Source: Strigamia acuminata (taxonomy: Eukaryota; Arthropoda; Chilopoda; Geophilomorpha; Linotaeniidae). Taken from it: DNA of 60,000 bases. The translations under genes were made by a program, and so were the position numbers. The DNA is taken from positions 57,857,369-57,917,368 of the forward strand of contig OX442314.1 of the NCBI GenBank assembly GCA_949358305.1, given 5' to 3'. Shown piece after piece: positions 4,783 to 37,772 of this stretch. Position 1 is the stretch's first letter; each line of letters begins with the position of its first letter. The notes under the pieces were generated by a model that was not told the origin of the DNA, made no database searches, and saw only the letters and a program-made list of their open reading frames with translations.

Positions 4783-4796
4783 GACAACACACTACT

Positions 4797-4815: not shown

Positions 4816-6152
4816 TAAACAAATGAACAAACAATAAATTACAAAATGGTTCAAATTCATGGACAAAAATTCAACGCATATAAACATGGCGAACAAACAA
4901 AAAATACACAGTGCTCAGAATTATGACGCTGGTTCTAATGAGGAAATTTACATAAGTGTGCAACGCATAAATGAACATAATCAAAACGAAAAATGCATAA
5001 GCCTCAGCATTAACTAGCATAGTTGAGAAGTAGCTATCCAGGCCGCTGACAAGCACCGGATTCCAAAATACTCGCTATAACCCACAAGGTGAATACAAGC
5101 GCTATAACTGACAATTTGATAATTTCAAAGAAAAGGTACAAATTAATATAAAATGCAGTTGCACACTCCCAATATACAGCTTCAACTAAGATGCAGAACA
5201 CCCAGTATATAACATGAAATAGCCAAAGATATACGCACAAAAAATGGGTTCGCATTACATGAATAAATTGAAAATAAAGATCAAAATATCTAAAGTGCAA
5301 ACAAATAAGCAATAGCAAAGCTCTTCTAAGTAGAATACAAACAAGAACGTGAAAAGTACAAAGTACGCGTCCTGTAAATGCATAGGCATTCTAAACAAAT
5401 ATGAGCACGAGCGCGTGGCTAAATGTCAAAAGACAAACGCGAAGAAAAATGTTCTAAGTCCAACAAAGATGGACGCCAAGGCCCGGATTGAGGCTAAAAC
5501 TCAGTCACGTGACCCTAACAAAATTCCTCAACGAAGTGCAAATTCGGCCATGTTGTTTCTCGAAAAGTGAGAGTGACGAAAATTCCAAGCCCGAGCCGTA
5601 AAAATGTCAAAACAAAACTAACAACGCGTAAAATCAAACTAAACGAAGTTAAACAATTGAATAACTCAATAATTCTAACAATAAGGCGTGAAAAAATAAA
5701 GTTTTGTCGACACGGCGCGAGCGACGGCGTTCGCCACACTAACTCACGAGTAAAAATACAAAATTGTCCATGAAATGAAAAATAAACACACTCACGGTTA
5801 CAAATACACTAAAATCCAATGCTCCTCGCCCCGTCGAACACCCAAATCCGCTATTCTATGCGTTGTCGAACTCCGCTGAAATCGCACGAGGTAAACGCGT
5901 CCAACAAGTGGGGGAAAATGGCGCCCGAGCACAAGTGTGAAAAACACGTGGTCGATCATCTGACCAATAAACACTCAGCGCCGCCCCACGAGGAAATTGC
6001 TTACCAATTCTTCTGAATAGCGAACTTGAGCCCCGACGAGCGGACAAAGACACGGAAAAAATACAAAAACTTGAGATTAACAAATAAAACAAGTAAAAAT
6101 TAGCAATAATTTCCAAACACAATAAAGAAACAAAAACGACACTTTGACACAA
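4816..6152 (-). other. Element A spacer between pol and ORF3
   Basis: This is about 1.3 kb inside element A without a convincing coding frame. Several minus-strand frames are hydrophobic (for example 5034-5318), but this strand is T-rich and would give hydrophobic translations by chance. A donor-like GGTAAGC lies at about 5999-6005. No domain is recognised. The spacer may be an intron or a packaging region, or it may be spare sequence. Confidence 0.4.
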
Positions 6153-11279: not shown

Positions 11280-13210
11280 AAAGCAATGCGTTTTTCTATA
11301 TCACGCATATACCAACGATCCTTGCGATTTCGCACCCACTCAGCTCCGGGTGGTAACACTAAATTGGGAGGGCTTGTCGTGTTGGCAAAAGAATGAGCGG
11401 AATGGCCACACAATGCCACCGCGACACCCGGAGGAACCTTTGCTTCCGGGGCCTTTGCAGGGGCACTGATTACCCGTGTCGGCGCCGGAGGTTCACTCCT
11501 CAGGGACTGCCCGACGACACTCTGCGCGTCACCATCCGCCATCGGATAGCCCAAAACCTCGGCCAACGCGACCAATTTTCGTTTATCAAATTGGAGGCGG
11601 GCAGGAGGTTTCTCTGCCTTAGCCGGTTCCACTTTCCTAGTCTCCCCAACCCTAGCTTTCCTAGGTTTGGGTTCGGGAGCGGGAACTAGGCCTTTTCGAA
11701 CCCCTTTTTCGTCAAATCTACGGTGTTGAAGGGCACGCATCTTCAACTCACGATCCGCCACCTGACCCAGATCTATCGCTCGCGACATGGAATGTACGCC
11801 ATAGCGGACCATCGTATCGGTGATCTGCGGCTGCAGCCAATGCTGGGCCAAGTTCCACTGCTGCCGATCCCCTAGCACACCTGTCAATTCAAGGTAACGA
11901 CTCATTTCACACAGAAACTCTGCCGTATCCTCTCCGACTTCCTGACACGCATCTTGTAAGAAGACCGCCGCGTCAGCCTCGGATAAGGAATACACCTTGC
12001 GGAAGCGCACGACAAATTCACTCCATGTTTTAGGTTTATGACGCAGGCGCAGGAACCAATTTAACGGCTTCCCGCCCAAGGCCAAAGGAATAAACAAGTC
12101 GATATACGCCTCCTCCGACACGCGTGACATAACAAAATGTGCACGCAATTTTGCCAGGAATCGCTCAACAGCATTATAAGATAGGTCCGTCTCATCAAAC
12201 TTCGGCACACTCTCCGATTTCACATGCGACAAATCATACTGCGGCGGCGGGGCCGGTATGGGCGGATAAGTCCGCTGCCGGAAACGCGAATTGACTGAAT
12301 TTCCGCGCGCAGCAGCTGCCCGATCGACACTTGCCGTCGAAGGAAGGCTGACAGCCGAGGATTTGGAACGAATTATGTCCCTCATAACCTCACTGTTGGC
12401 ATACTCCGACGGAGCGTATCTTTGCGAGCCCGCTTGGGCTGTCACGTTCGATGGCCTCTCCCGCGGGGGCAGCGGAGGGTTTATATCATCCGGCGCTCCC
12501 CCTTCTCCTGCTAAACCTTGTCTGTCAAATTCACTTGGCGTCAGGATACGTGAGCGGACCGGTCTCGGCCCCTGATCCTGCCCAGGAGGAGGCCCGTCGC
12601 CAGGCAGAGTGTCATGAGGTCTCTGCTGAACAGGTGGAATAACCCCCTCCACGGGCTGCACGGTTAAAGCCACAATTTCCTCCCTAACTACATCCCTCAT
12701 CCCCCCTAGAGTCTCATTCCTCCAATGTACCAATCTGCAGTCGATATTATGACTAAATTGTTCCATTGTTCGAACAACGCGTTCATTCAGCGCCAGCTCG
12801 GCCCGCTGTAAATAACGCAACCAATCTGGTTCACGTTGGACTTCCTCCCTAGCAGCATTACCCTCCGGACTAGATCCCGGAGGAGCGGTGGGGTTTCTCC
12901 GCACCGGGGGAGTCAACACCGCTGACGCTGAAAAATCCACTCGAGACTCATGCACAGACGAGGAGGTGTCGGGGCGATAGGAGCCATCTGTTGTGGAGGC
13001 CCCCATCTCTGCAATTGCAGCACCCTCGTGTATTTGCGAGTAGGATGGCGGCCGACCATCCCCTGCCAAGGGAACGCCATGCACGGACTTGGGCCTTGGC
13101 TGCGAGTCAGACGGGCGCGGCGTACGTTCGTAAAGCCGCTCACCCGCCCGACGCAACCAGTCGGGCCACACACTTGTAGAGTCATCACCAAGATGACCTC
13201 CTTCCGCCAT
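11183..13210 (-). CDS. gag: Element A Gag
   Basis: This is a structural polyprotein of 675 residues. The N-terminal half is proline-rich and low in complexity. A retrotransposon-gag capsid-like segment begins near residue 335 (SVPKFDETDLSYNAVERF) and includes the family's hydrophobic and Trp pattern (PLNWFLRLRHKPKTWSEF). No classical CCHC knuckle is present. Near the C-terminus there are only a CGHSAH segment and a CPHC pair, which might form an atypical zinc site (inference). The start ATG at 13210 lies 159 nt after the primer site. Its last 97 nt overlap pol in the -1 frame. Its closest relative in this window is the plus-strand gag at 54168-55349. Confidence 0.9.
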   Translation of the reverse strand: MAEGGHLGDDSTSVWPDWLRRAGERLYERTPRPSDSQPRPKSVHGVPLAGDGRPPSYSQIHEGAAIAEMGASTTDGSYRPDTSSSVHESRVDFSASAVLTPPVRRNPTAPPGSSPEGNAAREEVQREPDWLRYLQRAELALNERVVRTMEQFSHNIDCRLVHWRNETLGGMRDVVREEIVALTVQPVEGVIPPVQQRPHDTLPGDGPPPGQDQGPRPVRSRILTPSEFDRQGLAGEGGAPDDINPPLPPRERPSNVTAQAGSQRYAPSEYANSEVMRDIIRSKSSAVSLPSTASVDRAAAARGNSVNSRFRQRTYPPIPAPPPQYDLSHVKSESVPKFDETDLSYNAVERFLAKLRAHFVMSRVSEEAYIDLFIPLALGGKPLNWFLRLRHKPKTWSEFVVRFRKVYSLSEADAAVFLQDACQEVGEDTAEFLCEMSRYLELTGVLGDRQQWNLAQHWLQPQITDTMVRYGVHSMSRAIDLGQVADRELKMRALQHRRFDEKGVRKGLVPAPEPKPRKARVGETRKVEPAKAEKPPARLQFDKRKLVALAEVLGYPMADGDAQSVVGQSLRSEPPAPTRVISAPAKAPEAKVPPGVAVALCGHSAHSFANTTSPPNLVLPPGAEWVRNRKDRWYMRDIEKRIALCPHCFKPWQFPGNDLGPSTNPSEKAADPKRK
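11196..11246 (-). promoter_or_regulatory. Element A -1 ribosomal frameshift signal
   Basis: The minus strand has GGGAAAC at 11246-11240. In the gag frame it reads G GGA AAC, the correct phase for a slippery heptamer. Slipping back one base continues straight into the pol frame. After a 5-nt spacer comes GGGTCCG (11234-11228), which pairs perfectly with CGGACCC (11202-11196) around a 25-nt loop. GGGAAAC plus a downstream stem is an established frameshift arrangement (for example in betaretroviruses). Confidence 0.85.
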
Positions 13211-13368
13211 GATAGACAGAAACTATAGCAGTGACTCAAATGAATGATCTTACTGCTTAAAAAGTAGCGAATAACAACGCCACTTAAACCTTAATTTTTC
13301 CAAAGATAATTGCCGCACCCACCGCAAAAGCAGTTTATATGGGCAGCAATTAGAAAAACTCGGAATAC

Positions 13369-13386
13369 TCCCGGGTTTCGGCACCA
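13369..13386 (-). promoter_or_regulatory. Element A primer-binding site, tRNA-Phe type
   Basis: The minus strand reads TGGTGCCGAAACCCGGGA, two nucleotides inside the 5' LTR. From knowledge of animal tRNA sequences this 18-mer is the complement of the 3' end, including CCA, of tRNA-Phe(GAA). It would prime minus-strand cDNA synthesis. The exact position relative to the LTR supports the LTR boundaries and the minus orientation. Confidence 0.85.
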
Positions 13387-13388
13387 CG

Positions 13389-14552
13389 TGTAATGAATCG
13401 CGTTTCCCGAGCGGTTTGGGACGCGTTTGAAAGACGCCGCGATACAGAAAATCTTGGGAGCCTGGTCCTCGAGACCTGCCCAGCCGTGAGTGCACGCCTT
13501 ATGTCGGTAGCACACACTCCAGATCCCGATCTTTACACGAATATTTATTTTGGCCGGGTATTCCGAGCTACTAAAATGGGGGGACAGAATTTGCTTAGCG
13601 GTCACCAGAGTCAAGACCCAACGCGCGTCCCGCAACGTATCGTGCAGATCACAAGATCACACGAAGTTAAACGAAACACGTAACGTCCCGACTCACAAGC
13701 GTCCGCCTCGCTGTCGAAGTGAAGCGTGAAATGCGTGCTAACGCGTGCGTATCTGGCCTGCACGGTCACTCAAATCCCTAACTAAACCTCGCACAAGTGC
13801 TTAATTAAGCTAAAGCCCGTAGTGGGCGGCGAAACCAAGCTACGCGCCGAATGCATGAAATAAATAGACACAAAGACTTCAGTTTGAAAGCCAAACAAAC
13901 TTATCCTGCCTAAATAGCGACGCGTCACGGCGCTTAAAACGATACGAAAAGAAGCGGAAAAACAACAGGTTCAAATGGATAAAACTGTGAGTTAACACTA
14001 ATAAAGATGAGATGAAAACCTAGAGTCATGTCTCAGAACTACTAGGTGAAAACAAAGCAGCAAGTGAGCTTTGTGAAGTGAGCTAAGACTCTGCCATGAG
14101 CACTGGCTCCAAAGAGCACCTACGCGTTCGGGATACAGAGCTTAACTCCGGAAAAAAGGGAAAAATAGGGTGAAAGGTAAACTTGGACTCATCCAAGCTC
14201 AACCAATCACGGAAGAGTCAAGAGCCAATCAGTACAGTCGGTGCATACTAAGTGTATGACTAACGTCGACGCGTACTGACCAGAATAGAAATGCAAATGA
14301 GTTCGCATCAAAACAATAAACAGAAATAGAAAAACTAGGAAGAGATAAGAGAGAAGTGAGAGAAAGAGAAGAAAGTTAGGAATGAGTAAGGGATAAGAAA
14401 GGAAGAAATGAGGGAAAAAATGAGGAGAATTCGGCTAAACGTAAGACAGAATGTAAACAATACAAGGTAGGAACACAATTAGGGTTTATTAGAAACACAA
14501 CACGGGGGAAACAATGCGTACTACTCGTACGCGTGAACACCGGACCGTGACA
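13389..14552 (-). repeat. Element A 5' LTR
   Basis: On the element's own (minus) strand this is the upstream LTR, 1164 bp, beginning TGTCACGG and ending TTACA. It should hold promoter and RNA start, but I see no certain TATA box. It is followed after 2 nt by the primer-binding site. A 96-residue open frame on the plus strand recurs identically in both LTRs. It is antisense to the element and has no recognisable domain. Confidence 0.93.
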
Positions 14553-17888: not shown

Positions 17889-18800
17889 TTCTAACATCTA
17901 ACTAGTACGATATAGTTGAGCAATTGATTTCTAACAGAATTTGTAAGACTAAGACAAAAATGTTGTAAAAAAGTCGATATTATATGAACTTGAAGAATAA
18001 AATTCAGCACACTTACCTGATCCAAGGCGCAGAACACTGTGAAAGCAATATTGATGTCAATTAGTTGTTCTTTGTTGAGTTTTTTGTTGTGAAATTAATG
18101 GATCGAGATAACTATGGCAACGGTAATTGAAAATTGATTGCAGTGTTTTCACGTCTATTAACTCTGGCTGATTGCCGGTCACTGTATCGGGTCAAACACG
18201 TGGAACCCTACGTGTTTACTTTGTAAAGAAATAAAGTGTTGATCTAAATTCTTCTGTTCGTTTGAGAATGAATATTTTATGCTTTCTTTTTGTTCACTTA
18301 ATGTCAATCGAAACAACCACGACAACGGAATAGACAATAGTGATCATGTTTGGCTGAATTTAAAACATTTAAAACGCACATGTATTGACGCTTGTGTTCT
18401 AGCCGAACTGCCAGAATCAAATTCGACAAATAAATTTAAACTTAAACCAAACGTGTGCACACAAAGTAGAAGGTTTCACTATTGTAGTCAGTTCCTACAT
18501 ATGACAATTAAAAAAATAGAGAAAATTTTTGTTTCTTAATGCTTTCTGTAAGCAAGGCAAAACCATTGTGTTTACTGTAAATTGCACAGTGAAAATGTTG
18601 ACTAGCCAATTTTTGCCATCAACTTGTCATTAGGACCTACAATTTTAATTGTGACTTGGAATACTAATATCAATTGAACCTTTTTCTCTCACAATTCTCT
18701 ACTATTTCAACCTTATTTTGCACACATTTCTTGTGGTTCAGGGACCTTTTGTTCGAGGTTCCGTGCTCAAGGATGTAAATGTCAAGAGTGTCACGTCTTG
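17889..18800. other. Intergenic stretch left of element B
   Basis: No confident gene. A frame at 18279-18539 (86 codons) has no recognisable domain. At about 18730-18768 there is a good plus-strand splice-acceptor-like sequence (CTTGTGGTTCAG|GG) followed by a short Cys-rich open stretch that runs into the LTR of element B. It might be a host exon cut by the insertion, but this is only a guess. Confidence 0.3.
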
Positions 18801-19868
18801 TGCGGCGATCCGGGTTTTTACTTAATAAATCAAGGAGACTTATCAAATAATCGTCGTAGAGATGCCGTACAGGACTTCTACTCTGTGGCTAAATGGTTGT
18901 CTAGGGGAATGATTTTTACACGGAGAGTAAAAGGAAAAATTAGATAGTTTTAATCGTTCAAAATACAAAGGAGGTATTATTTAAAATGTTTGGGGTCGAT
19001 CTGGCTTCTTCTTCAAATGTACACTCACAGTTGACCGTTGGCTCCAAGATGGCGTCGATGGCGTCGTGTGAGCGCGGGATTTTAGCGGAGTAAACTCGAC
19101 GCTAAAATACGTTGCTAAAATATTCTAAAATCCTCGTGGAGCACGCTCGACACGAGAATACGTCTTTCACACAGCGGTTCGATTATTACGGAGCAAGCTC
19201 GACGTAACAATCGGTCTTTACACAAATCGCTTTGTGGAGTTAAACTCGACACAAAGCCTTCAAACTAACAGAGTAAACTCGATGTTAGTTTCACACAGAA
19301 ATGGCTTAAATTACGTGTAGTAATTCAAGCTAGAAAGGCGCTATTCCGTACAGTTGGCACGGACCAGCAATGAGACTCGATTCTTCCAGATATCACAGAT
19401 CACACTTAGCGAGTTTGGGCATAAGTTTGACACAGATGTGAATGGTTTGGAAGCAAGATCAAGAATGCGGGAAGAGTGGGCCAAAACCGTTTGGCTCACT
19501 TCTAAATCTGCTCAGAAAAGCTGCGCAGATGACGAGTTGCACAAAGATCACACACGGCCGCCTTTGGGTCGTGTGCAACAATTGAGCCGGGCACGCGCGA
19601 GGGGAAGGGATGCTCCGCCCAGGCACACGCCTAGCAGCATCATCAAAGCAATGCACGCTGCAGCGCGATTGGTTGACGCTGTTGCTGGGCCAAACTTGCT
19701 GCAAAACACAATATTATTTGGGTAATATTGTGTCTTGATTTATATTTTATTAATGTATGTTTTATTTCAATTTACATTGAAACAAAACATATAAGCTTGT
19801 TGAATATGTTTATAAGACAATTTGGAAATATGGTGTGCACTCAAATAGGAATATTTGAGGTCACCACA
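18801..19868 (-). repeat. Element B 3' LTR
   Basis: The downstream LTR copy. By eye it differs from the 5' LTR near 18832, 18846-18847 and 19180. The change at 19180 falls in a hairpin stem and turns a C-G pair into a U-G type pair in the other copy. It contains the hairpin array at 19080-19291. Confidence 0.92.
19080..19291. repeat. Array of five hairpins with a common GAG-N-CTC-GA top (3' LTR)
   Basis: There are five inverted repeats in 212 bp: 19080-19107 (8-bp stem TTTTAGCG), 19133-19156 (6-bp CTCGTG), 19180-19213 (11-bp with one mismatch), 19229-19257 (8-bp GCTTTGTG) and 19262-19291 (9-bp AAACTAACA). Every one has GAG, 4-5 nt, CTC, then GA before the closing arm. GAG pairs with CTC and GA forms a bulge. 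Stem sequences are all different but each pairs with its own partner. Spacers share TTTCACACAG-like words. The same array is in the 5' LTR at 30820-31031. Confidence 0.88.
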
Positions 19869-19882
19869 CTTCCCCCCCTTTT
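19869..19882 (-). promoter_or_regulatory. Element B polypurine tract
   Basis: The minus strand reads AAAAGGGGGGGAAG directly before the 3' LTR start TGTGG. This is a textbook plus-strand primer for LTR element replication and confirms the orientation. Confidence 0.9.
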
Positions 19883-20040
19883 AAGAAAGAATCTTATTCT
19901 GTTCCAAAAAGAGACAGGTAGATGTGAGAATAAATACACAAGGTTTCAAAGTAAAATGGAACAGGATATATATTTATTCTTTTTTATTACAATATAAAAA
20001 TAAAAAGGAATTATTTTTAATGAATGGGCATGTTCCCTAA

Positions 20041-22876
20041 TTATTTAGGCAGCATGTCCGTTGAATGATCGTTGGGATCTTTGTGCTCTGTGACGGTGCA
20101 CAAAGGTCGGCCGGCGTTTGGTCCTGACCGGAAGCCAGGGTTGATGTGGAGCCACACTTGCTTTATGCGGTCCACACCATCCCTTCGTCCAAAACCCATC
20201 TCGAAGTACTCCTGCGGGTCTTGAGGCGTAATTCGAGCGAACACCAGGCGTTGATGCAGGATCCACGGCTGCTGTTCCTTGATGTGGTTTTCCAGCCACG
20301 CGAGGACTCGGTTGCATAAATCCTCGCTGTTCTGGAGAATCGTTTTCGTCGCGCTCGTTATGTAGCAAAAGGCGTATAATGAGCGCAAACGTTGATAGGC
20401 GGTGAGGTGGGTGGCCATACTCGATCCCCTATCTCTTGGCGGCGAATCCTTTGGAGGGGGCGGCGGTGGCGGCGACTTCTTGCAGATCGAGAGGGATCTG
20501 GATCTGCGCAAAGCCGGGGTGCGCGTCTTTGGTCTGGCACCGCAGGCCACAGGCACGACGAACTCGCGATCGTCGCTGTCGAGCCACTCCATTGGAGACG
20601 AGATGTTGCAACTCGGTGCCTCGGTCGCACGGGAAACACTCGACGTTGCCGTGATGGCAGCGTGGAGTGGAGCTGCGGATGACGGTGGTGCGCCAGCGGG
20701 ACGGGCGGTGGCTCGTTCTGCTGCGCGTCGCTGCTTCAGCGCAGCCCATTCCTGCCGTAGTCGAATGGCGGATCCAGCCGGAGTTTCGCCAGTCGCCTCG
20801 GCTTGTTGCGTCAATTCGGCGAGCATCGTTGGAGGATCGGGGCGAACTGACTCCCAATCGTCCAGCAAGGCTCGTGGAAGCCCTAGCGGCACGGTCCACA
20901 ATCGAGTGGCGGCGGCCAGAGCAATCTGTGGGTCGGGAAAGACTCCTTGGAACAGGATTCGAAGAAGTCCCTCCGACAACTTCCTGTTCATCTTCTGCAG
21001 CGTCCGTTGCAGTTGCTTGTCGGACTTGCACGACGTAAGCTCTCGCGCAAGCCATTGCCATTCCTTCTCACCTTCGCGGATCTGAGCGAGTTGGTATTCG
21101 TCCAGATGCGCGAGGTACATCGTTTGGGCTGTCTCGGGAAACGATGAGAATCGCCTCCAGAGATCAGCGCACTCCTGTGCGGGAAATGGTTCTTGAGAGA
21201 CATATCCCTCAAAACGGATGACCGATGTCACTTGTGGCACGGGCACCGATGGATCTGGTCGCATGTCGCTGGTGACTGGACGGCAAGCGAACGGCAAAGA
21301 GGTGTTGACGTCTCCTTGACCGGCTTGCAATGCGGCGATGCGTCGATCTTCTTTCGCTATCTCGTCCGACCAGTCAATTCGGCCGGAGGAGGAAGCGCTA
21401 GGCTGTGAAGCGTTGGACCTTTCTTCACGCGATGAGAGAGAACTCCTCGTGGAAGATTGGCGCGATTGCACTCGAGGTCGGCTTCGGGATGTGGGTCTCG
21501 ACACGGACTTCGAATGTCTTTTTGGCGGCGTCGACTCGCGTCGGTGATGCGAGCGATGACGAGCCTTCTGGAGTGGAGGTAACCCTCCAATGGCGCCTTC
21601 CCCCGACGACTGTGTTGGGGAGGAGCGACGGCCACTGTAGGGCGACCTCGATGATCGTGACCTCGACGTGGAGCGCGGTGGCACCACGTGGATGGTGGAA
21701 GCGACCTGTACCCGGGGCTCAGGCTCTGGATACGGGTTTGGCACGAAATCAGCATGGAAACATCCGCCCATGGCTAGTTGATGCATTTCCGACTGGCATG
21801 TCGGCACCCAACGTTTCTTTCCGTCCGTTGTTACACGGAAAGATTCGTGGTAGAGGCGTACAACCTCGGCCTTGGTTTGGTCAAGACGTTGGAAGATGTC
21901 CTCCAAAATCTGTCGACGCTCCCACGCAGGAGCGTTGAAGTAACGGCGATGGTCTCGCGTTTCTTGAGCGATCACTGTGAAGGCGAAGTCGAGCAACACG
22001 TTTCGCAGTGGTCCGAAGGTGTCGCGCTTCATTGCCCACTCGAGGGCGTCGCGATGACCGAATCCATCGATTAAATAGGCGATCCGAAACTTCGTTCCCC
22101 ATCGCTTGTTTAAGGCCTTGGAGAATTTGTGTCGGGCCGCCCAAAACGTCAGTCTTCCTTTAGACTTTATGATTTCTGGCGGCAATGCATGTCGCCAGAC
22201 ACCAGGAGCTGTCGGAACATCGGGATGCAGTTCGAGATGCGTCTCCCGAAGCTGGATGATCTGTAAAATATTCGAAGAAATAATTAAAATCCATTTTTTC
22301 GTGTAAAATAATTATTTCCGAATTTTCAGTGAATAAAATCACGGGTGAGATTTCACTCGACAGTTTAGATTCATTAAATTTTTCAAAATATTTGAAAAAT
22401 TGTAAAAAACGTTGTTTCCGACGGCTATGTTTCAATGTTTGGAGCGTTGCCGTAGCAACGCCTCAAAAACGAGACACAGCGCCATCTGATGATAATAATG
22501 GCGGCGCCTTCTTGCGAAGGCGTTACCAACGAACTTTTCGCTTTTTCCGAGTGAAAATGCACTTTTAATTACTTTTCATGACTGAAAGGTAATTTTATTT
22601 TAATTTATTTACCCGGTCGTGTCTCTGTGCACGAGTTTCGCCGTTTGGATCGGCGAATAGGCCTCCTCGAAGTTGTGGTCGGGGCGGCGTGACTGGCAAA
22701 CGGGCTGCAGCGTCGGCCAGAGCGGCTTGAGCTTCGGCGGACGCTTCGGCGGACTCTTCGGTGACATCCACGGATGTATTCGAAGTATTTGCGGAACCAA
22801 GCAGCGTCGAATTCGTTTCTAATTCGAGGCTGTTGGCGCCGGCTTCGCTTCCTTCTTTCGGTTCTCCTTCTTCCAT
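20041..22876 (-). CDS. Element B ORF3, intron-containing Arg/Ser-rich protein of unknown role
   Basis: Two coding exons are predicted. Exon 1 is 22876-22613 (ATG, 88 codons, acidic/Ala-rich). It ends at CGG|GTAAAT. The intron is 22612-22261, ending TTTTACAG. Exon 2 is 22260-20041 (739 codons plus stop). Both junctions are in phase 0, giving about 827 residues. A further intron with GTAAGT at 22962 and CATTTGGATTAG ending at 22885 lies in the leader. The protein has a Trp/Arg-rich start, a long RS-rich disordered stretch, a DLWRRF...GVFPD segment resembling the C-terminus of element A's ORF3, and a second disordered stretch with polyproline. No signal peptide or membrane segment is seen, so it is not env-like. 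The function is unknown. Confidence 0.75.
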
Positions 22877-23086
22877 TTGAACGACTAATCCAAATGGAAA
22901 AGAAAAACGAAAATTAATTTATTAGTTTTTCCTTGGAAAATTCCAAAGAAAAAACTACTTACAATTGAAGAATCTCGTTGAAATAATCCGGTTGTTTCGC
23001 TTTTGGTTTTTTGGAGTTGAGCACTTAACACACGTGTGAGATCGAAGTGAACTCAGACGCGAAGTGATCAGTTCAAATACCGGAAG

Positions 23087-26000
23087 TTACGTTTGGGTAA
23101 CGTCGCGGTTAGTGACGTCATCCAATCTTATTGTTTGATTGGTTTGCGTATGGCTTGGGGAATTGCTCCTTACGTCATACGGCTGATCCCTGGATCTCGA
23201 GGTTATCGAGGGGAGAAGACACATGTTGTTTTTTCCTCTCGGTTTACGAGTCCGAAGATTATATCTCTTTGTCGGTGAGGGATTTATTGTATTTAAATCG
23301 CCATCTTCATTGTCATCGGAGACTGAGTCAGATGAGTCTTTTATTTCAGATGTTTTTTGTTTCTTTTCTAAAAACACCTTTTTATTTAATTTTTTAGCAA
23401 TTTCAAGTTTTTTGAAACTGTCACGAAGTTCAACGTCGTTATTCACGAGGTCTGACTCCATTTGTGGTTTGGACGAATTATCGACAGGTATTTTCTTTAA
23501 TTCATCGTCATCTAACGTATTAATTATATTTTCAGTCTTTTGACCGACTTCTTCGCCTTCTAACCATACTTCCTGATCGAAACTCGGGAAATACGGAGTT
23601 AATTCCGACGAATGGACAGCTGGAAATATTTCGTTATTCTCTAGCTTTCTCAATTCTACCGAACCTCCCTGTAATATTTTGGTTATTGCATAAGGTCCTG
23701 TTCTTTTATCAGCGATGCCAGCTGCAATGCCGCGGGCAGCGCTCGACAAAACATGAGAATCTCTCCAAACTAAATCGTTTAATTTAAAATTGGAGAACTT
23801 CTCACCTTCTTTTTTAAGATTAACTCGTCTCCGCAAATCTAACACGTGTGACATCATGTGCTGATATGTTTCGGCGATAACAGCTTCTAATTTTTGCACG
23901 TATAAATGTGGGTTTTTTGGATCTACGACCAAAATTCCTTCAGGTATTCTTGGATCCCAAGGTACTCTGAGTTCGCGAAAAAAGTTAAGAAATGCGGGAG
24001 AGAAGTCTCTTCCTCTCGTCACCGTAGTTCTCAAACTAAATGCAAATTCACGCAAATATTCATCCCATTTGGAATGAACAGATGAATAAATTGCAACCAA
24101 ATATTTGATGTCACGGTTAACCCTTTCAACCGGGTTAGCTTGTGGGTGATATGTTGAAGTTGGTGTTGGAACCATCTTGAACTTTTCACAAAATTTTTTA
24201 AAGACTTGGGCACGAAATTGCGGGCCGTTGTCAGAAATAATTTTACGAGGGAATCCCATGCTCATGGAAAGGTGATAAATGCAATTTGCCACTTTTCCAG
24301 CAGTGGGGTTACACATTGGATATAATTCTGGCCAATGAGTTGCCACGTCAAGTATGACTAAAATATGTGTGTTGTTTTTGCGCGTCCGAGGTTTCGGGCC
24401 GGTCAAATCAACACTTAGGCAGTCAAATGGGCTGTAAGGACCCATTTGCGCTGCTTCAATTTGTCCTTTCGTTCGAGGCTTGCAAGCTTGACAACGCTCG
24501 CAATGTCGAATGAATCTTGTAATGTCCGATTTCATGCCTTTCCAGGTATAAATTCGGCGTGCTCGATAAAGAGTCCTTGCAATTCCTGGGTGGCCAGAAA
24601 GTGGGTGGCCATGCATTAGCCAAATAATTTTATACTTCAATGTCTGAGGTACAAAAACTTTGAGTGCTCTCCCATCCTCCCCCAATTCATCAGACATTGT
24701 GGGATGAAATTGCATTAATAAGTCATCTTCAATTAAGAAGGTGGTTGCGTGTTTTCTATATTGTTTCCTCTGGAGTCGCGTTGTGACGTCAGGCGGAAAT
24801 TGATTACAATTTAAAAAATTACGCATCAATTGGCAAACTTTATCTTCTTTTTGGGCCTTGATTATGTTTTCCCTTGTAGGGGGTTCACAATCAAGACGCT
24901 CTACAATTTTGGCGACAAATGCTTTTATTAAAACATTTGACGAAGGAACTTGGAATTTCCTTGAAATTTGCGCTCTTATGACGTCATCTGATTCCTCAGA
25001 GGGGTCATAAATTTTAGTCCAATAATTGACGAATTCGTGATCTTCCTTTTCCTCCAGCGTGGAGACAGGAAGTTCATGAAATTTTCCCATTTTCCAATTT
25101 CGTTGTGGTGATGGACAATAAGATAATAATTCGTCATTATCTCCATCATCTTCTGGATTTTCCGGTTTGTCAATCGGTGATCTCGATAAAGCATCCGCTA
25201 AAACATTTAGTGGACCTTTAATATATTGTATTTCGAAAGAGTAGCGCATCAGCTCCATTTGCCAACGCGCTAACCTTCCGGCAGGTTCGTCTAACTGCAT
25301 CAACCATTTTAGTGCTTGATGGTCAGTCCTAACTATGAATGTGGTAAATTCCAAATAATGTCGGAATTTACGTAATGCCCAGATTACCGCAAGGCATTCT
25401 AATTCTGTGGTGCTGTAATTTATCTCAGCAGGTTGCAAACTTCTGCTGGCATAAACACAAGGCACTTCGATATTTTGATTATCGATTTCCCTCATTTGCA
25501 TAAGCGCGGCGCCTAGTCCTTTCCTGCTAGCGTCGGTATGCACAATAAATGGTTCTGTCAAATCAGGCATGGCCATTGTTTCTGCATTTGTTAAAGCATC
25601 TTTTATTTGATCAAAAGCTTCTTGATGAATTTTTGACCAAATAAATTCCACATCCTTTTTGAGTAAAGGACGTAGAGGTTCCGTCATGACTGCTAGATTC
25701 TTGAGTAATCTGTGAAAAAAGTTCACCATTCCCAAAAATCTTTGCAACTCTTTCAAATTTGAAGGAGCTGGCATTTCTTTAATGGCGGCGACTTTTTTAG
25801 GGTCGACACTAACTCCTTGAACACTTAACTTGTAACCAAGAAAAGTTAATTCTTTTCTGCCAAATTTCGATTTTTCTGGATGAACATGAAGATTTGCATT
25901 TTCAAGTTTACTCAGAATTTCTTCCAGATGAATCATGTGTTCTTCAAAATTTTTTGATATAATAATTATATCATCGAGGTAGGCCCATGCGAATTTTCGA

Positions 26001-27565
26001 TAGGCGTCCCCCAAAATCTTTTCTATCAACTTTTGGAAAGTTGACGGCGCATTTACGAGACCAAAGGGCATGACTCGAAATTGAAGTCGACCCAAAGGGC
26101 TCCAAAACGCAGTTTTAGCACGGTCGTTCGGATGAACCTCTATCTGCCAATAGCCTTTTGACAAATCTATTGTTGTGACCCATTCAAATCTTCCGAGTTC
26201 TCGCAAGATTTCCTCAATGCTGGGCATTTGAGGAGGGTCGTATAATGTATGTGCATTGAGTGGTCTAAAATCAATGCAGAGTCTCGGATCACAATCCGGA
26301 CGCATCACTAGAACTATTCGCATTCCATAGTCTCCAGTGGCTTGTTCAACGTATCCATTATCCAACATGTCTTGACAGATTTGACGGATAATTTCACGTT
26401 TTTGTGGATTTACGCTTTTAAACGGAACTCTAATAGGAACTTTAGTGTCCAGTTTAATTTCATGCCTAACGAGGTGTGTTCTACCTGGTCGGCGTGATAA
26501 AATCTTTTCATGTTTCTTTAATACTTTTTCAAGCATTAAATTATTTTCCATTGACAAATTAGCGTCGCTAACAAGTCTTTGTACTATATTTTCTTCATCG
26601 GCAACTTTAGCTTGACATGCAGTGGCAGAGCCAGCTTTCATGTGATTTGCTTTAATAAAGTCGCTTTTCATTATTTCTTCGGGTGGATCAAGGAACTCTT
26701 GATAACGATCAAGAATCGCTTGAGGAACAAAAGGTAAATCTTCTTTCAAAGACTTGACAAAATTCCAAGACATTGTCTTAGGATTTGGTTGTATGTTGAG
26801 TCGATTCATGAAATCACATCCTAATAAAACAATAGGATATTTATTTCTTAAAATTATGAATGGATGACTTAACATCCCGTGTGTCCACGCAAAAGAAAGT
26901 AGGAGAGTTCCTTCAGGGACTACATCTTCGGAAGCAGTCGTAACTCTCACATCCGGTCCTATTGGTCGAATTTCATCTTCCAGTTTCAGCGAAATTACTA
27001 CGGAGTAGGCCATGAAGCTTCGATTAGCTCCAGAGTCTAACATCCCTGTTATCATACCGTTTGCCGTCTGCAATCGAATTGTCGGCAAATCATTGCTGTT
27101 TGGTATGTCCGCGTATTTGCATTTAAAACGTCGCGGTGGTTTAATTTCTATCGGCGGATCCAATGGTAATTCGTCCAATAAATCATTAGTGACTAGCGTT
27201 GTAGCCATTAATTTTTTAATGCAATCGTCAAGACCAGGTAAATCAATTTTATCTGACCTTTCAACAATTTCAGGTGTTGGCCTAGTTTTTCCATCTAGCA
27301 AAGTAACAGCATCTTTCATTTTAGATTCCCAATCAACTTTTAATTGTTGAACTTTTTCTTTAAAAAATTCTTCAGTGATGTTTTCATTTTGCAGCACAAG
27401 CCTTAAACTGGAAACATCAATTTTTGGAAATATTAAATTATTTTCTAATTCTAATTTAATCTGTGTATTTAAAAATTCATCTAAAATTTGAGATGGTGTT
27501 AGTTCATTTTCCGAGGCGGTAGGCGTCGCATCCACTAGACCGTCTGGATGCGCGCTTACAAGTTT
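23087..27565 (-). CDS. pol: Element B Pol: protease, RT, RNase H, integrase
   Basis: The frame runs from the frameshift site to 23087. Numbered from the GTG at 27535 it has 1482 codons. No ATG is suitably placed at the front, which supports translation as a Gag-Pol fusion. Motifs in order: retropepsin DSGA near 167, RT YLDD at 519-522, RNase H HTDAS near 683 and ADALSR near 800, integrase zinc HH-CC (HPLSGHPG...CERCQAC) near 1005-1040, and the catalytic D, D, E in SVDLTGP, SDNGPQF and NPVERVNRD. A GPY-like tail (GPYAITKI) and acidic C-terminus follow. All catalytic residues are intact. It makes cDNA and integrates it in the nucleus. Confidence 0.95.
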   Translation of the reverse strand, partial: KLVSAHPDGLVDATPTASENELTPSQILDEFLNTQIKLELENNLIFPKIDVSSLRLVLQNENITEEFFKEKVQQLKVDWESKMKDAVTLLDGKTRPTPEIVERSDKIDLPGLDDCIKKLMATTLVTNDLLDELPLDPPIEIKPPRRFKCKYADIPNSNDLPTIRLQTANGMITGMLDSGANRSFMAYSVVISLKLEDEIRPIGPDVRVTTASEDVVPEGTLLLSFAWTHGMLSHPFIILRNKYPIVLLGCDFMNRLNIQPNPKTMSWNFVKSLKEDLPFVPQAILDRYQEFLDPPEEIMKSDFIKANHMKAGSATACQAKVADEENIVQRLVSDANLSMENNLMLEKVLKKHEKILSRRPGRTHLVRHEIKLDTKVPIRVPFKSVNPQKREIIRQICQDMLDNGYVEQATGDYGMRIVLVMRPDCDPRLCIDFRPLNAHTLYDPPQMPSIEEILRELGRFEWVTTIDLSKGYWQIEVHPNDRAKTAFWSPLGRLQFRVMPFGLVNAPSTFQKLIEKILGDAYRKFAWAYLDDIIIISKNFEEHMIHLEEILSKLENANLHVHPEKSKFGRKELTFLGYKLSVQGVSVDPKKVAAIKEMPAPSNLKELQRFLGMVNFFHRLLKNLAVMTEPLRPLLKKDVEFIWSKIHQEAFDQIKDALTNAETMAMPDLTEPFIVHTDASRKGLGAALMQMREIDNQNIEVPCVYASRSLQPAEINYSTTELECLAVIWALRKFRHYLEFTTFIVRTDHQALKWLMQLDEPAGRLARWQMELMRYSFEIQYIKGPLNVLADALSRSPIDKPENPEDDGDNDELLSYCPSPQRNWKMGKFHELPVSTLEEKEDHEFVNYWTKIYDPSEESDDVIRAQISRKFQVPSSNVLIKAFVAKIVERLDCEPPTRENIIKAQKEDKVCQLMRNFLNCNQFPPDVTTRLQRKQYRKHATTFLIEDDLLMQFHPTMSDELGEDGRALKVFVPQTLKYKIIWLMHGHPLSGHPGIARTLYRARRIYTWKGMKSDITRFIRHCERCQACKPRTKGQIEAAQMGPYSPFDCLSVDLTGPKPRTRKNNTHILVILDVATHWPELYPMCNPTAGKVANCIYHLSMSMGFPRKIISDNGPQFRAQVFKKFCEKFKMVPTPTSTYHPQANPVERVNRDIKYLVAIYSSVHSKWDEYLREFAFSLRTTVTRGRDFSPAFLNFFRELRVPWDPRIPEGILVVDPKNPHLYVQKLEAVIAETYQHMMSHVLDLRRRVNLKKEGEKFSNFKLNDLVWRDSHVLSSAARGIAAGIADKRTGPYAITKILQGGSVELRKLENNEIFPAVHSSELTPYFPSFDQEVWLEGEEVGQKTENIINTLDDDELKKIPVDNSSKPQMESDLVNNDVELRDSFKKLEIAKKLNKKVFLEKKQKTSEIKDSSDSVSDDNEDGDLNTINPSPTKRYNLRTRKPRGKNNMCLLPSITSRSRDQPYDVRSNSPSHTQTNQTIRLDDVTNRDVTQT

Positions 27566-27568
27566 TTT
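27527..27568 (-). promoter_or_regulatory. Element B -1 ribosomal frameshift signal
   Basis: The minus strand has AAAAAAC at 27568-27562. In the gag frame it reads A AAA AAC, 3 nt before the TAA stop at 27558-27556. A -1 slip enters the pol frame, which is open from here. After 9 nt, CGCATCCA (27552-27545) pairs perfectly with TGGATGCG (27534-27527) around a 10-nt loop. AAAAAAC is the classic slippery heptamer of several retroviruses. Confidence 0.85.
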
Positions 27569-30450
27569 AGAAGTTCGCCGATTGATCTCATCGATTTTTC
27601 GAACTCCTCAATAATCTTGTCTTTGCTCGATTTCCGATCAGGACACTCTTTAGCCCAATGTCCTAATTTTTTACAAATGTTACACGGGTCAGTAGCAGGC
27701 AATTTCGCGACTTTTGGCGAAGGCGAACTTGAACGTTTGGCTTCGTCCTTTTTAGGGGTCGGCGACTTCGATCTACTGAGCGCGTCTGTCTTTGGTGAAC
27801 CAAAAGTAACGTTTTTAGGCGCCATCTTTGGTCCAAATTTTCGAGCTACTGCGTTATTACGGGCTAATAAAGCAGCTGCAGCCTCGCTTTCTGGTTCCGA
27901 GTCAGATTTCTCTGGTTCAGAAACAGTTTCCATTTCTGTCACTTCGGCTAAGTGAGCTTTAGGGGTTGGATGAGGATTTTTTCCATCCGATCCCTTTTTT
28001 GATTCTTTAGCAGTCTCTGCCAAAAAATCTCCTCGTTTTGGGGGTTGCAAAAGAGGGGTGTTAGCAAAACGTGTGTCTTTTGCCAATTCTTTTCTCCTTT
28101 GCTGTCGCTTAGCGTACGCAACTTTTTCATCAGCTGGTAAGTAAGCTTTATAATTTTCATCAATTCTTATCTGGTTAGCTCGCATAAATTTGGCTAATTC
28201 AGCGAAACCACCCGGATAAGGTGCTCGTACAGAAAGTAGAACATTCTTTGAATAATCTGTCAATCCACGACGGAATTGACGATCAATGGCTGCGTCTCCC
28301 ATTGTATAAGGGAGAGTGACCAATAAATCCTCAGTCCTTCTTAAATAAGAGCGAAGACTTTCGCCTTTATTTTGAGAAAGATTATCCCACATTTGTAGTA
28401 AGTCTTCACTGGACTCTCCATACTCAGTCATGAATTCTTCTACAAAGTGATTCCAATTTTGAAATTGTTTTGAATCAAACCATTTCTCAGCTCGGTCTAT
28501 AAGAGCTTTTGGTACTACTCTTTTCAAAGCAGTGTGACATGCAATGCCATTCAACCTTGAAATTCGTAAAACTTCATCTAAAAGAGTGGATCCAGCTTCC
28601 CATTCTCCATCGAATAAAGCGGGTTTGATGTGATCCCATCTAATAGTTCTTTCGTCAACTAGATCGTGTGTCCAGTTGATTGCAGTATATTGGGCAATTT
28701 TCTGTCGTAATGCGATGTCAGCATTATCGGCAGTAGCGTCAGATCGATCGGAAGATCGACGATCAGCTAATAATCGATCAATTTCTTCAGCGGTGTAATA
28801 ATGTGTATTACGCCGAGAAGAATGGCCTCGATGTCGACGTCGATGAGATCGATGTCGATTATCGCGTTCTTGTTGCGCATTCACATCAGAATCCGACCTT
28901 GAATCAGATTGTGAATTTGAAGGCGTGTTAAAATGTGGTGTTTCAGGTGGGTCGGGTGGGTCGCCGTCATCGTCTGGCGGTCGACGTCCACCTCCAGGTG
29001 GTCCATCTCCGTGTCCATCTGGATTTCCTCCATCTGGTGGATTTCTCCTATACTGACCCCCACCTGGCGGGCTTTCATGTCCGTCGGGTGGTTCGCGTGC
29101 TGGATTCGTGTCTCGTCGACTTCTTTTCGACGAGTCTTGCTGTTGAGCCAGTGGTATCGTTCGAGTAACATGAATACCAGTTTCATGCCGCCTATTTCGA
29201 TCATCTACCATTCCTAACAGTCGGTCACTGTTGTGAAAAATAGGATTTCGATTACCTGGGAGCGGATTGCGATCAGCTCTCCGTTCCTCGGAATCTGAAG
29301 GACGTTTTCTTTTTGAGCGATGGCGGCGACGCGAACGTTGGTCGTCATCACTCGATAATCCAGATTGGCTACTTAACTCTGAAACAACGGAAATTGTTAT
29401 TGTTTCGGGAGTCAAAATAGGGACAGTTGGCGCAGCCATTTCTGGTTGCACCAATTGGTCAGTATAATTCCTTGCTTGCAAACGATCTTTCATTTCTGCA
29501 AGCTCCTCTTGAGCGCGCAACAAATCAGCTCGGAGAATTTCATTCTCATTTATTTGATTTTGCGATTCTTCTGGTTGTAATCGCTTAGCAGGGTCGCTAG
29601 ACTTGACTTGTCCGCTCGTACTGGGTTGATCCAGCGAGTGGAAAATCTCATCTTCGCGCTTAGCTATTTTGCTTTCGCGAGTACGCTGTGTTTTAGCACG
29701 TGTGTCTAATTCAGCAGCATATCTCACTAGTTGATTATGATTGCGTTGGTAGTGGTCTGCCAAATCAATCAGTTCTTTATTTTTCTGCTCCAGCTTACTT
29801 TTGGTAAGCTCGAGCTGTCTTCGCGCCGCTTGGTGTGAGCGAATTGAAAGTTCATTTCTAGTATTCATTTTAGAAAGATCTTCCACTTCACCTTTTAATC
29901 GGTATTCTCTAGCTTTTTGGGCTAGAAATTCCTCATTTTGTCGATTGAGTTCCATATGTTGGAGCTCAACCTCCGCTTTTTGTTGTTGAAGCTCAGCTTC
30001 TTTTCGTTCCATTTCAAATTGTAAATTTGAAACGGCACGATCAGTGTGAAGTCGTATCATGGCGCGATGAATCTCTTCCACCGTCATGTCGTCCGTTATT
30101 TGGGCGCCATCCTGGCGTGCTTGATTTCTCAAAGCATCCAACATGGTCATGCGAGGAGGTGATTCGTGAGACGATTCACTTTCCATTTCACGTAACGTAT
30201 TTTCCACTTCCTCCAGTGGAAGTGGCGGGAGTTCTTGGTCGTTAGAACTCGCACTTGAAGCGCTTAATGCTCTAGCAACTTCATTTTCTGCATCCTTAAG
30301 TTGTTTCGGATCTGGAATTGGTGTTATTTCTTCAGAAATAATTTTCTCTGTAAGCATTTCAGGCTCGAGAGCCGGCAAAACCGTCGCTGCTCGTTTCTGA
30401 GTGCTTGGTCGACCTCGCTGTCGTTTCACAATTTGCATTGGCGTCGCCAT
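27556..30450 (-). CDS. gag: Element B Gag
   Basis: From the ATG at 30450 the protein has 964 residues. The frame is open further up to 30516, but that would begin at a TTG within the primer-site region. Close to the N-terminus there is a KRQRGRPS motif of AT-hook type. About residues 120-290 form a long Gln/Glu/Lys-rich segment that looks like a coiled coil, followed by Arg/Ser, His and Pro/Gly-rich disorder. A capsid-like domain lies at about 580-780 (DHIKPALFDGEWEAG, RSYLRRTEDLLVTLP). One CCHC zinc knuckle (CNICKKLGHWAKEC) is near residue 925. The last codons contain the slippery site. It assembles the particle and packages RNA. The coiled coil and length are unusual for the family. Confidence 0.9.
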   Translation of the reverse strand: MATPMQIVKRQRGRPSTQKRAATVLPALEPEMLTEKIISEEITPIPDPKQLKDAENEVARALSASSASSNDQELPPLPLEEVENTLREMESESSHESPPRMTMLDALRNQARQDGAQITDDMTVEEIHRAMIRLHTDRAVSNLQFEMERKEAELQQQKAEVELQHMELNRQNEEFLAQKAREYRLKGEVEDLSKMNTRNELSIRSHQAARRQLELTKSKLEQKNKELIDLADHYQRNHNQLVRYAAELDTRAKTQRTRESKIAKREDEIFHSLDQPSTSGQVKSSDPAKRLQPEESQNQINENEILRADLLRAQEELAEMKDRLQARNYTDQLVQPEMAAPTVPILTPETITISVVSELSSQSGLSSDDDQRSRRRHRSKRKRPSDSEERRADRNPLPGNRNPIFHNSDRLLGMVDDRNRRHETGIHVTRTIPLAQQQDSSKRSRRDTNPAREPPDGHESPPGGGQYRRNPPDGGNPDGHGDGPPGGGRRPPDDDGDPPDPPETPHFNTPSNSQSDSRSDSDVNAQQERDNRHRSHRRRHRGHSSRRNTHYYTAEEIDRLLADRRSSDRSDATADNADIALRQKIAQYTAINWTHDLVDERTIRWDHIKPALFDGEWEAGSTLLDEVLRISRLNGIACHTALKRVVPKALIDRAEKWFDSKQFQNWNHFVEEFMTEYGESSEDLLQMWDNLSQNKGESLRSYLRRTEDLLVTLPYTMGDAAIDRQFRRGLTDYSKNVLLSVRAPYPGGFAELAKFMRANQIRIDENYKAYLPADEKVAYAKRQQRRKELAKDTRFANTPLLQPPKRGDFLAETAKESKKGSDGKNPHPTPKAHLAEVTEMETVSEPEKSDSEPESEAAAALLARNNAVARKFGPKMAPKNVTFGSPKTDALSRSKSPTPKKDEAKRSSSPSPKVAKLPATDPCNICKKLGHWAKECPDRKSSKDKIIEEFEKSMRSIGELLKNL

Positions 30451-30520
30451 TTTGTCAAATTGAGAGAACAATGGAAATAAAGGATCTTTTTGCAAAAATC
30501 GGATTTTAACAATCAAAACT

Positions 30521-30538
30521 ATCCCGGACGGGCCCCCA
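30521..30538 (-). promoter_or_regulatory. Element B primer-binding site, tRNA-Pro type
   Basis: The minus strand reads TGGGGGCCCGTCCGGGAT, 2 nt inside the 5' LTR. It matches the tRNA-Pro-type primer site familiar from gammaretroviruses at 17 of 18 positions (C instead of T at the eighth base). The mismatch could reflect a different tRNA-Pro isoacceptor. Confidence 0.85.
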
Positions 30539-30540
30539 AG

Positions 30541-31608
30541 TGCGGCGATCCGGGTTTTTACTTAATAAATCGAGGAGACTTATCAAGCAATCGTCGTAGA
30601 GATGCCGTACAGGACTTCTACTCTGTGGCTAAATGGTTGTCTAGGGGAATGATTTTTACACGGAGAGTAAAAGGAAAAATTAGATAGTTTTAATCGTTCA
30701 AAATACAAAGGAGGTATTATTTAAAATGTTTGGGGTCGATCTGGCTTCTTCTTCAAATGTACACTCACAGTTGACCGTTGGCTCCAAGATGGCGTCGATG
30801 GCGTCGTGTGAGCGCGGGATTTTAGCGGAGTAAACTCGACGCTAAAATACGTTGCTAAAATATTCTAAAATCCTCGTGGAGCACGCTCGACACGAGAATA
30901 CGTCTTTCACACAGCGGTTTGATTATTACGGAGCAAGCTCGACGTAACAATCGGTCTTTACACAAATCGCTTTGTGGAGTTAAACTCGACACAAAGCCTT
31001 CAAACTAACAGAGTAAACTCGATGTTAGTTTCACACAGAAATGGCTTAAATTACGTGTAGTAATTCAAGCTAGAAAGGCGCTATTCCGTACAGTTGGCAC
31101 GGACCAGCAATGAGACTCGATTCTTCCAGATATCACAGATCACACTTAGCGAGTTTGGGCATAAGTTTGACACAGATGTGAATGGTTTGGAAGCAAGATC
31201 AAGAATGCGGGAAGAGTGGGCCAAAACCGTTTGGCTCACTTCTAAATCTGCTCAGAAAAGCTGCGCAGATGACGAGTTGCACAAAGATCACACACGGCCG
31301 CCTTTGGGTCGTGTGCAACAATTGAGCCGGGCACGCGCGAGGGGAAGGGATGCTCCGCCCAGGCACACGCCTAGCAGCATCATCAAAGCAATGCACGCTG
31401 CAGCGCGATTGGTTGACGCTGTTGCTGGGCCAAACTTGCTGCAAAACACAATATTATTTGGGTAATATTGTGTCTTGATTTATATTTTATTAATGTATGT
31501 TTTATTTCAATTTACATTGAAACAAAACATATAAGCTTGTTGAATATGTTTATAAGACAATTTGGAAATATGGTGTGCACTCAAATAGGAATATTTGAGG
31601 TCACCACA
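30541..31608 (-). repeat. Element B 5' LTR
   Basis: The upstream LTR on the element's strand starts TGTGGTGACC and ends ATCGCCGCA. It contains a five-hairpin array at 30820-31031. A 123-codon frame on the plus strand (31094-31465) recurs in both LTRs. It is antisense to the element and has no known domain. Confidence 0.92.
30820..31031. repeat. Array of five hairpins (5' LTR copy)
   Basis: The same five hairpins as in the 3' LTR, offset by 11740 bases. The one base that differs by eye, at 30920, keeps the third stem paired through a wobble. Confidence 0.88.
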
Positions 31609-32653: not shown

Positions 32654-32739
32654 CACTCAAAAGCGTATACAAAAACTTTCATAAATTTCATTAAAAAAGT
32701 TATCTACAAGAACGCTGTCGCAGCGATCGCACTTAAATA

Positions 32740-32966: not shown

Positions 32967-32968
32967 AA

Positions 32969-32985
32969 GGGTTATGGGCCACAGC
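32969..32985 (+). promoter_or_regulatory. Element D primer-binding site, internal initiator tRNA-Met type
   Basis: GGGTTATGGGCCACAG starts 2 nt after the 5' LTR. It is complementary, with one mismatch, to the anticodon arm of initiator tRNA-Met. It does not match the tRNA 3' end. This half-tRNA priming mode is established for Drosophila copia and supports an animal copia-like lineage. Confidence 0.8.
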
Positions 32986-37767: not shown

Positions 37768-37772
37768 AAAAT

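Follow-up and report, generated by a model that had tools for sequence, protein, structure and literature searches.

Why should the long terminal repeats (LTRs) of an arthropod retrotransposon carry a row of hairpins that share one apex and are otherwise built from unrelated sequence, and does such a row act as RNA or as DNA? The question is raised by element B, located on the minus strand (18800-31608) of the 60,000-nucleotide stretch of Strigamia acuminata DNA that we analysed (the window). Element B is a Ty3/gypsy-type LTR retrotransposon, possessing LTRs, gag, a pol gene in which RT-RNase H precedes integrase, a primer-binding site (PBS) and a polypurine tract (PPT). Its features are collected in Table 1.

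As an earlier note on this DNA had described, five inverted repeats are present in both LTRs (19079-19291 and 30819-31031, corresponding to LTR positions 578-790); on the plus strand each reads GAG-N4/5-CTC with GA at the 3' side, and the arms of each hairpin are complementary to one another and unlike the arms of the other hairpins. Since element B lies on the minus strand, the reading relevant to RNA is the reverse complement, which places a UC bulge 5' of GAG. In element sense, each hairpin comprises a lower stem of 8-11 bp, a two-nucleotide U-Y bulge on the 5' side, an upper stem of GAGY paired with RCUC, and a loop of 2-3 nt. This apex is present in element sense only, the opposite strand having a GA bulge on the 3' side. 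The GAG/CTC pairing that had been proposed for the upper stem is correct in its letters and too short by one pair, as the first and last bases of the supposed loop covary (U-A, C-G). The difference between the two LTR copies within the array, which had been thought to keep pairing by a wobble, affects the outermost pair of hairpin 3 and converts C:G to C:A in element sense; the pair is thus broken, and the wobble exists on the plus strand only. The word TTTCACACAG is found at two places, one within the array and the other spanning its edge, and a copy with one mismatch lies at 19426.

Table 1. Positions of the features of element B in the window (hairpin sequences in element sense)
Feature	Position	Strand	Remarks
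3' LTR	18800..19868	-	1069 nt; 99.6% identical to 5' LTR (self-BLAST)
ATTAAA	18949..18954	-	LTR 915; invariant in 57/57 LTR rows
GTGAGT	19023..19028	-	LTR 841; kept as GTGAGT in 56/57 rows
Hairpin 5, 3' LTR	19079..19108	-	AUUUUAGCG-UC-GAGUUUACUC-CGCUAAAAU
Hairpin 4, 3' LTR	19130..19159	-	AUUCUCGUG-UC-GAGCGUGCUC-CACGAGGAU
Hairpin 3, 3' LTR	19180..19213	-	CGAUUGUUACG-UC-GAGCUUGCUC-CGUAAUAAUCG; one G-U; outermost pair unpaired in most relatives
Hairpin 2, 3' LTR	19229..19257	-	GCUUUGUG-UC-GAGUUUAACUC-CACAAAGC
Hairpin 1, 3' LTR	19262..19291	-	AAACTAACA-UC-GAGUUUACUC-UGUUAGUUU
Polypurine tract	19869..19882	-	AAAAGGGGGGGAAG; adjoins 3' LTR; read from sequence
ORF3 in env position	20041..22185	-	Arg/Ser-rich stretches
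pol ORF	23087..27535	-	order RT, RNase H, integrase
gag ORF	27556..30516	-	986 aa from TTG, ATG = residue 23; Retrotrans_gag, CCHC knuckle
PBS-like sequence	30521..30538	-	TGGGGGCCCGTCCGGGAT; after 5' LTR; read from sequence
5' LTR	30540..31608	-	self-BLAST
Hairpin 5, 5' LTR	30819..30848	-	
Hairpin 4, 5' LTR	30870..30899	-	
Hairpin 3, 5' LTR	30920..30953	-	outermost pair C:A, broken in sense
Hairpin 2, 5' LTR	30969..30997	-	
Hairpin 1, 5' LTR	31002..31031	-	

The coding capacity of element B bears on which proteins could read such an array. Outside its single CCHC knuckle, the Gag protein contains two segments rich in Arg, close to residues 397 and 554, and both are retained in one divergent copy; Arg-rich stretches are common in Gag proteins. 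Comparison of gag with one divergent copy over 365 codons gave a dN/dS of about 0.08 at a dS of 0.53, and the 32 best-scored pol copies in the genome are 98-100% identical, with 30 of the 32 free of stops. From the near-identical, mostly stop-free pol copies and the low gag dN/dS we conclude that the family is young and was under selection. ORF3 has no Pfam match and no similarity to env, and none of the 7,999 candidates that were scored qualified as a protein relative at E <= 0.001. On the minus strand at 22185-22960, ahead of ORF3, are one or two short exon-like pieces with intron-like GT..AG stretches, which suggest that an accessory protein made from spliced RNA is encoded in the env position, ORF3 perhaps being its 3' part. 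The PBS-like sequence resembles one for tRNA-Pro. The LTR opens with a conserved palindrome, TGTGGTGACCTCAAATA-TTCC-TATTTGAGTGCACACCA (19831-19868, minus strand).

We then asked how readily an array of this kind arises and how widely it is found. Across 2,000 shuffles of the 1,069-nt LTR, such hairpins appeared at 0.001 per LTR on both strands together, against five in sense in the real LTR, which rules out a chance origin. A covariance model of the hairpin matched only the 2 x 5 array hairpins in the window (E <= 10). At -65.1 kcal/mol (z -3.76), the lowest-energy fold of the sense strand consists of exactly the five hairpins and some weak additional pairs. Folding of the antisense strand is somewhat less stable yet also significant (-57.8, z -3.58); its lowest-energy fold contains two of the hairpins and its centroid four, and so folding of single strands does not by itself decide between the two. 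In the genome, a pattern of two neighbouring apices gave 501 matches versus 2 in a reversed control, and a looser apex pattern gave 612 versus 2; these are matches to hairpin pairs rather than to elements, and those inspected were part of the first 100 places listed.

Several familiar identities could be set aside. An Rfam search (cmscan) of the LTR returned five weak matches at E <= 10, all below the gathering score. Bulged lower stems of 8-11 bp are probably too short for miRNA or hpRNA precursors, and Tandem Repeats Finder lists no simple tandem repeat at the array. Nor is the array a general feature of LTR elements, since in the window three further elements with pol show single weak hairpins at most and nothing like an array. 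The window includes a gypsy-type element at 1205-14552, with pol on the minus strand, no hairpin array and LTRs (1205-2370 and 13387-14552) that are 100% identical, and, next to each other on the plus strand, a copia-type and a further gypsy-type element (32738-37486 and 37603-42386) with short LTR-like repeats.

Related LTRs were gathered from the 237.5-Mb genome by DNA similarity and by apex pattern, and are about 71-100% identical to the window LTR (the lowest, at 71%, being locus L066). The COX1 gene on the mitochondrial contig of this genome has its nearest match, at 87%, in the centipede Mecistocephalus marmoratus, with horseshoe crabs and a second centipede (Bothropolys) following among the best 120 of 8,000 matches listed; short of a species name, this points to an arthropod host that is probably a myriapod. 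The array set comprised 108 loci and the two window LTRs; two loci without the array span were removed (L104 and L067, the latter a pattern match that proved unrelated), and the remaining 108 collapsed to 65 unique rows. Removal of six duplicates of shorter span left 59 rows for the covariation alignment, which was built without reference to structure. An LTR matrix was assembled from 57 of 87 scanned rows, leaving out 20 short loci (L009-L028) and rows that were identical or less than 60% covered, and trees were built from these 57 rows and the window 3' LTR (58 in total). In some cases both LTRs of one element are among the rows. Apex counts are biased by the pattern-found loci (L029-L058 and L059-L078), and the 40 rows found by homology only were therefore counted apart.

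Intact apices number 3, 4, 5 and 7 in 9, 10, 80 and 11 array readings respectively, some arrays being counted repeatedly because more than one overlapping locus covers them. The seven-hairpin arrays (L024-L028 and L032-L037) contain hairpins 1-2 twice, in two different allelic forms, and apparently arose by recombination between LTR lineages. Their repetition of hairpins 1-2 makes the earlier idea of tandem duplicates with diverged stems plausible, while the lack of mutual similarity among the five stems counts against it. At one further place (L040/L041) two arrays lie 1.4 kb apart on the same strand, which suggests an LTR tandem or a truncated internal copy.

The hairpins exist and are maintained by compensatory change. 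In the 65 unique arrays, the paired cells comprised 3,968 Watson-Crick, 223 G-U, 25 A-C and 56 other combinations. About 130 of the 223 G-U cells are concentrated in three pairs, and 40 of the 56 'other' cells belong to the outermost pair of hairpin 3; this pair is unpaired in 40 of the 59 related rows and should not be counted as a stem pair. Across the 59 rows, 98.0% of cells are paired (95.0 in shuffles). Cells with two-sided changes number 158 versus 52.5 in shuffles, with none of 500 shuffles as high, and sliding the partners by 1-3 columns reduces the count to 5-11. The number of pairs showing two-sided changes is 9 (6.6 in shuffles, 9 of 500 as high), and the covariation score is 0.150 against 0.097 (0 of 500). 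For a measure of further pair types, the shuffles scored higher than the alignment (47.9 versus 42). Supplied with no structure, RNAalifold recovered all five hairpins and eight pairs with two-sided changes.

The same signal was evident when the changes were mapped onto a tree of the LTR flanks outside the array, where 54 co-occurring changes were counted. Random placement yielded 13 +/- 2.9, with none of 1000 trials reaching the observed number, and slid partners yielded 9-16; covariation in the array therefore lies above a tree-based null that leaves recombination out. The 54 include some non-restoring changes, namely three at the outermost pair of hairpin 3 and one in hairpin 4. In a second count on the same tree, 42 two-sided steps exchanged one Watson-Crick pair for another, 5 ended in G-U and 4 left the bases unpaired. 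As LTR copies recombine, these events and p-values are not independent, and one change may be counted repeatedly; we therefore take as a safe minimum about eight separate compensations, one in each of eight pairs.

Individual hairpins illustrate how these compensations proceed. Hairpin 1 is found in relatives as AAUUGACA/UGUCAAUU, compensated and with a CUUG loop, hairpin 2 as UCUUUGUG/CACAAAGA, also with a CUUG loop, and hairpin 5 as UUUUGGCA/UGCCAAAA, with two compensated pairs. Intermediate forms indicate that the compensations in hairpins 1 and 5 arise pair by pair. Uncompensated A-C pairs occur in hairpin 5 of L097 and L107, and the apex of hairpin 1 is lost in L066 and L084. Hairpin 4 shows no two-sided change in the 59 rows; its one-sided changes are mostly to G-U, with some broken cells. 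The structured RNA that the earlier note had proposed is accordingly supported by the compensations in hairpins 1, 2, 3 and 5, by a bias towards G-U pairs in element sense (described below) and by the near-invariant apex.

In the full-length RNA of an LTR element, R is present at both ends, whereas U5 belongs to the 5' end and U3 to the 3' end. Every base of the LTR is thus present once or twice in that RNA, and the array is part of the genomic RNA wherever transcription starts; by the same replication logic, the refuting case considered earlier, in which the array would lie wholly outside any transcript, cannot hold for full-length element RNA. The sequence signals of the LTR are compatible with several transcript-start positions. 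The ATTAAA motif is our best candidate for a poly(A) signal, and GTGAGT is a possible leader splice donor. If ATTAAA does serve in polyadenylation and transcription starts upstream of position 578, the array would lie in R and hence at both RNA ends; a start between LTR positions 790 and 915 is also possible.

What stays constant is the apex. When hairpins with nothing in common in their lower stems are pooled, a purine precedes the bulge, U is the first bulge base, and GAG and CTC recur; the loop adds a Y-R pair that covaries and a U at its third position. In the 40 homology-only rows, the purine and the bulge U are each present in 198 of 199 hairpins, and the letters of GAG in 196, 199 and 197 of 199 and of CTC in 198, 199 and 196 of 200. 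Among 75 unique hairpins, the purine and the bulge U are each found in 74 and the U at the third loop position in 73; GAG and CTC are separated by 4-5 bases, and the outermost two of these are able to pair. The second bulge base is mostly C or U and rarely A or G. Identity to the window is highest in GAG/CTC (0.992) and lower in the stems beneath (0.906), the loops (0.884), the spacers (0.865) and the bulge (0.844), the LTR beyond the array standing at 0.923; it is therefore the apex that stands out and not the array as a whole, which is no better conserved than the remaining LTR.

These constant positions coincide with the published sequence needs of the arginine-binding bulge of HIV TAR. In the work on TAR cited here, U23 is irreplaceable, the next base is free and the third one of the bulge is dispensable, being absent from HIV-2; U23 is taken up in a base triple by A27-U38, a pair that lies between G26-C39 and G28-C37, neither of which can be flipped (PMC11885821). 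Changing or losing U23 also abolishes binding of a peptide ligand (PMC6379670). In the arginine sandwich motif, as characterized in PMC6189040, the bulge pyrimidine forms the cap and the base preceding the bulge the floor. The array hairpins possess the corresponding letters, with a bulge pyrimidine below a potential triple pair and a purine beneath it, as far as sequence shows. This TAR-like core comprises few positions, and the chance of such agreement is about 1 in 500 by a rough, a posteriori estimate for one fixed target, which becomes weaker once all comparable motifs are allowed for.

We believe that the best explanation, and one that could as easily prove right as wrong, is that the array is a conserved structured RNA of the element transcript that serves as a docking array for an arginine-rich protein and so marks the element RNA. 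The partner and function that we infer for the observed hairpins are as follows. Five hairpins (three to seven intact in relatives) would present the same TAR-like bulge apex on lower stems of free sequence. The bulge U would fold back against the A:U pair, forming a U.A-U triple, and would hold an arginine side chain sandwiched between itself and the purine beneath; several copies of an arginine-rich protein could then assemble on one RNA with high avidity. The likeliest partner would be a protein of the element, either Gag with its two Arg-rich segments or the Arg/Ser-rich ORF3 product, and a host factor is also a candidate. The complex might select unspliced genomic RNA for nuclear export, packaging or both, a Tat/TAR-like effect on transcription being the next possibility. 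The repetition of one apex on free stems implies that selection acts on presentation of the apex and not on stem sequence, and the variation in hairpin number from three to seven is as expected for avidity. A bolder proposition, which we put forward tentatively and would not expect to hold in full, is that an invertebrate Ty3/gypsy element evolved, apart from lentiviruses, a multivalent TAR-like arginine-sandwich array on which an arginine-rich regulator of the element itself acts in cis, the three to seven hairpins setting the dose, and thereby a Tat/TAR- or Rev/RRE-like circuit outside retroviruses.

The array could instead be a packaging or dimerisation signal that is read mainly by the CCHC knuckle of Gag, in which case the apex would be a Gag recognition sequence and TAR-like arginine recognition would play no part. 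Retroviral packaging signals are usually repeated short stem-loops, as is this array, and Gag of element B does carry one CCHC knuckle. The third loop base, constant as U in 73 of 75 unique hairpins, also fits such a reader, as does the dependence of Ty3 RNA packaging on UTR or POL sequences described in PMC4974528. We nevertheless consider this reading unlikely, as the constant bulge U and the constant pairs flanking A:U point to a bulge that is read in the groove.

A second alternative places the function in DNA, the palindromes being sites, or extruding cruciforms, for a dimeric host protein that controls the LTR promoter. The GAG-N4-CTC dyad does occur five times in a promoter-bearing LTR, which elsewhere contains CpG-rich stretches and a CCAAT at position 197 that is invariant in the 55 rows covering it. 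Against this, the arms have no common sequence and yet are compensated, and a two-nucleotide bulge interrupts the dyad, always on the same side. The two levels also differ in the decay that they predict: a single transition in a base pair leaves G-U when one strand is read and A-C when the other is read, and a cruciform should be neutral in this respect. Single changes from Watson-Crick pairs, read in element sense, gave 45 G-U and 20 A-C, whereas the remaining LTR columns show an even split of transitions (508:483; binomial p = 0.0025, recombination ignored). This excess favours selection on the sense RNA over a DNA cruciform. A function in DNA therefore appears quite improbable, and the repeated protein-binding cruciform that had been offered alongside the structured RNA is disfavoured by the strand bias.

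It is also conceivable that the array is directed at the host, its hairpins imitating 7SK-type arginine sandwich motifs and recruiting elongation factors in a Tat/TAR or 7SK-like manner. Stem-loop 1 of 7SK does contain several arginine sandwich motifs, as described in PMC6189040. A location near the transcript start is unsupported, and the array has no TAR-like hexaloop, which makes this reading very doubtful. Finally, template switching during reverse transcription or repair, a process known in general to rewrite quasi-palindromes, might have perfected the arms without any selection, in keeping with two-sided changes that often fall on the same branch, but it is most improbable as the source of the array given that templated correction predicts neither the survival of the two-nucleotide bulge, nor the persistence of 223 G-U cells, nor an apex far more conserved than the spacers (0.992 versus 0.865).

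The preferred reading, a docking array for an arginine-rich protein, can be set beside several described systems. Like HIV TAR, the array consists of hairpins in LTR-derived RNA with a 5'-side pyrimidine bulge in which U comes first, a purine before it, and G-C, A-U and G-C pairs after it; the bulge of HIV-2 TAR is likewise of two nucleotides (PMC11885821). It differs in being a row of five distinct hairpins with free lower stems, in having a loop of 2-3 nt in place of the hexaloop of TAR that is read by cyclin T1, and in its carrier, an arthropod Ty3/gypsy retrotransposon with no known Tat. The TAR family model gave no match in the LTR (Rfam cmscan, E <= 10). The array thus appears to work like TAR in its sequence requirements and is not a member of the TAR family.

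Retroviral and Ty packaging likewise makes use of short stem-loops in element RNA with Gag as their reader. In Ty1 and Ty3, the packaging sequences are imprecisely defined, and the account in PMC4974528, as far as it bears on them, describes no repeated bulge apex. Conservation in the long R regions of retroviral LTRs is similarly tied to stem-loops, the relevant parts of that study describing no array in which a single apex recurs on stems of unrelated sequence (PMC3601003). Stem-loop 1 of 7SK resembles the array in combining several bulge-triple-base arrangements in one RNA; its bulges are grouped on a single stem, no more than one helical turn apart, whereas each bulge of the array sits on its own hairpin, and 7SK is a cellular RNA and not an LTR (PMC6189040). 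The Ty3/gypsy element Cer1 of C. elegans combines gag-pol with an ORF in the env position that has no similarity to env and forms the C-terminal half of a spliced product, CERV, which is required for export of genomic RNA (PMC10309623). ORF3 is comparable in its position and in lacking Pfam and env matches, and may likewise belong to a spliced product. The passages on Cer1 considered here report no hairpin array and leave the RNA target open (PMC10309623). In the open-licence literature searched we found no described counterpart of the array, which is no proof of its absence.

The means by which LTR retrotransposons single out unspliced RNA for export and packaging are poorly defined even in Ty1 and Ty3 (PMC4974528), and possible interactions of the Cer1 export factor with its RNA were left for future studies (PMC10309623). 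The array of element B offers a testable candidate for such a mark, being compact, with a nearly invariant apex on free stems, natural variants in copy number and many genomic copies. If the proposed function is correct, the lentivirus-type recognition of bulged hairpins through arginine would have arisen more than once.
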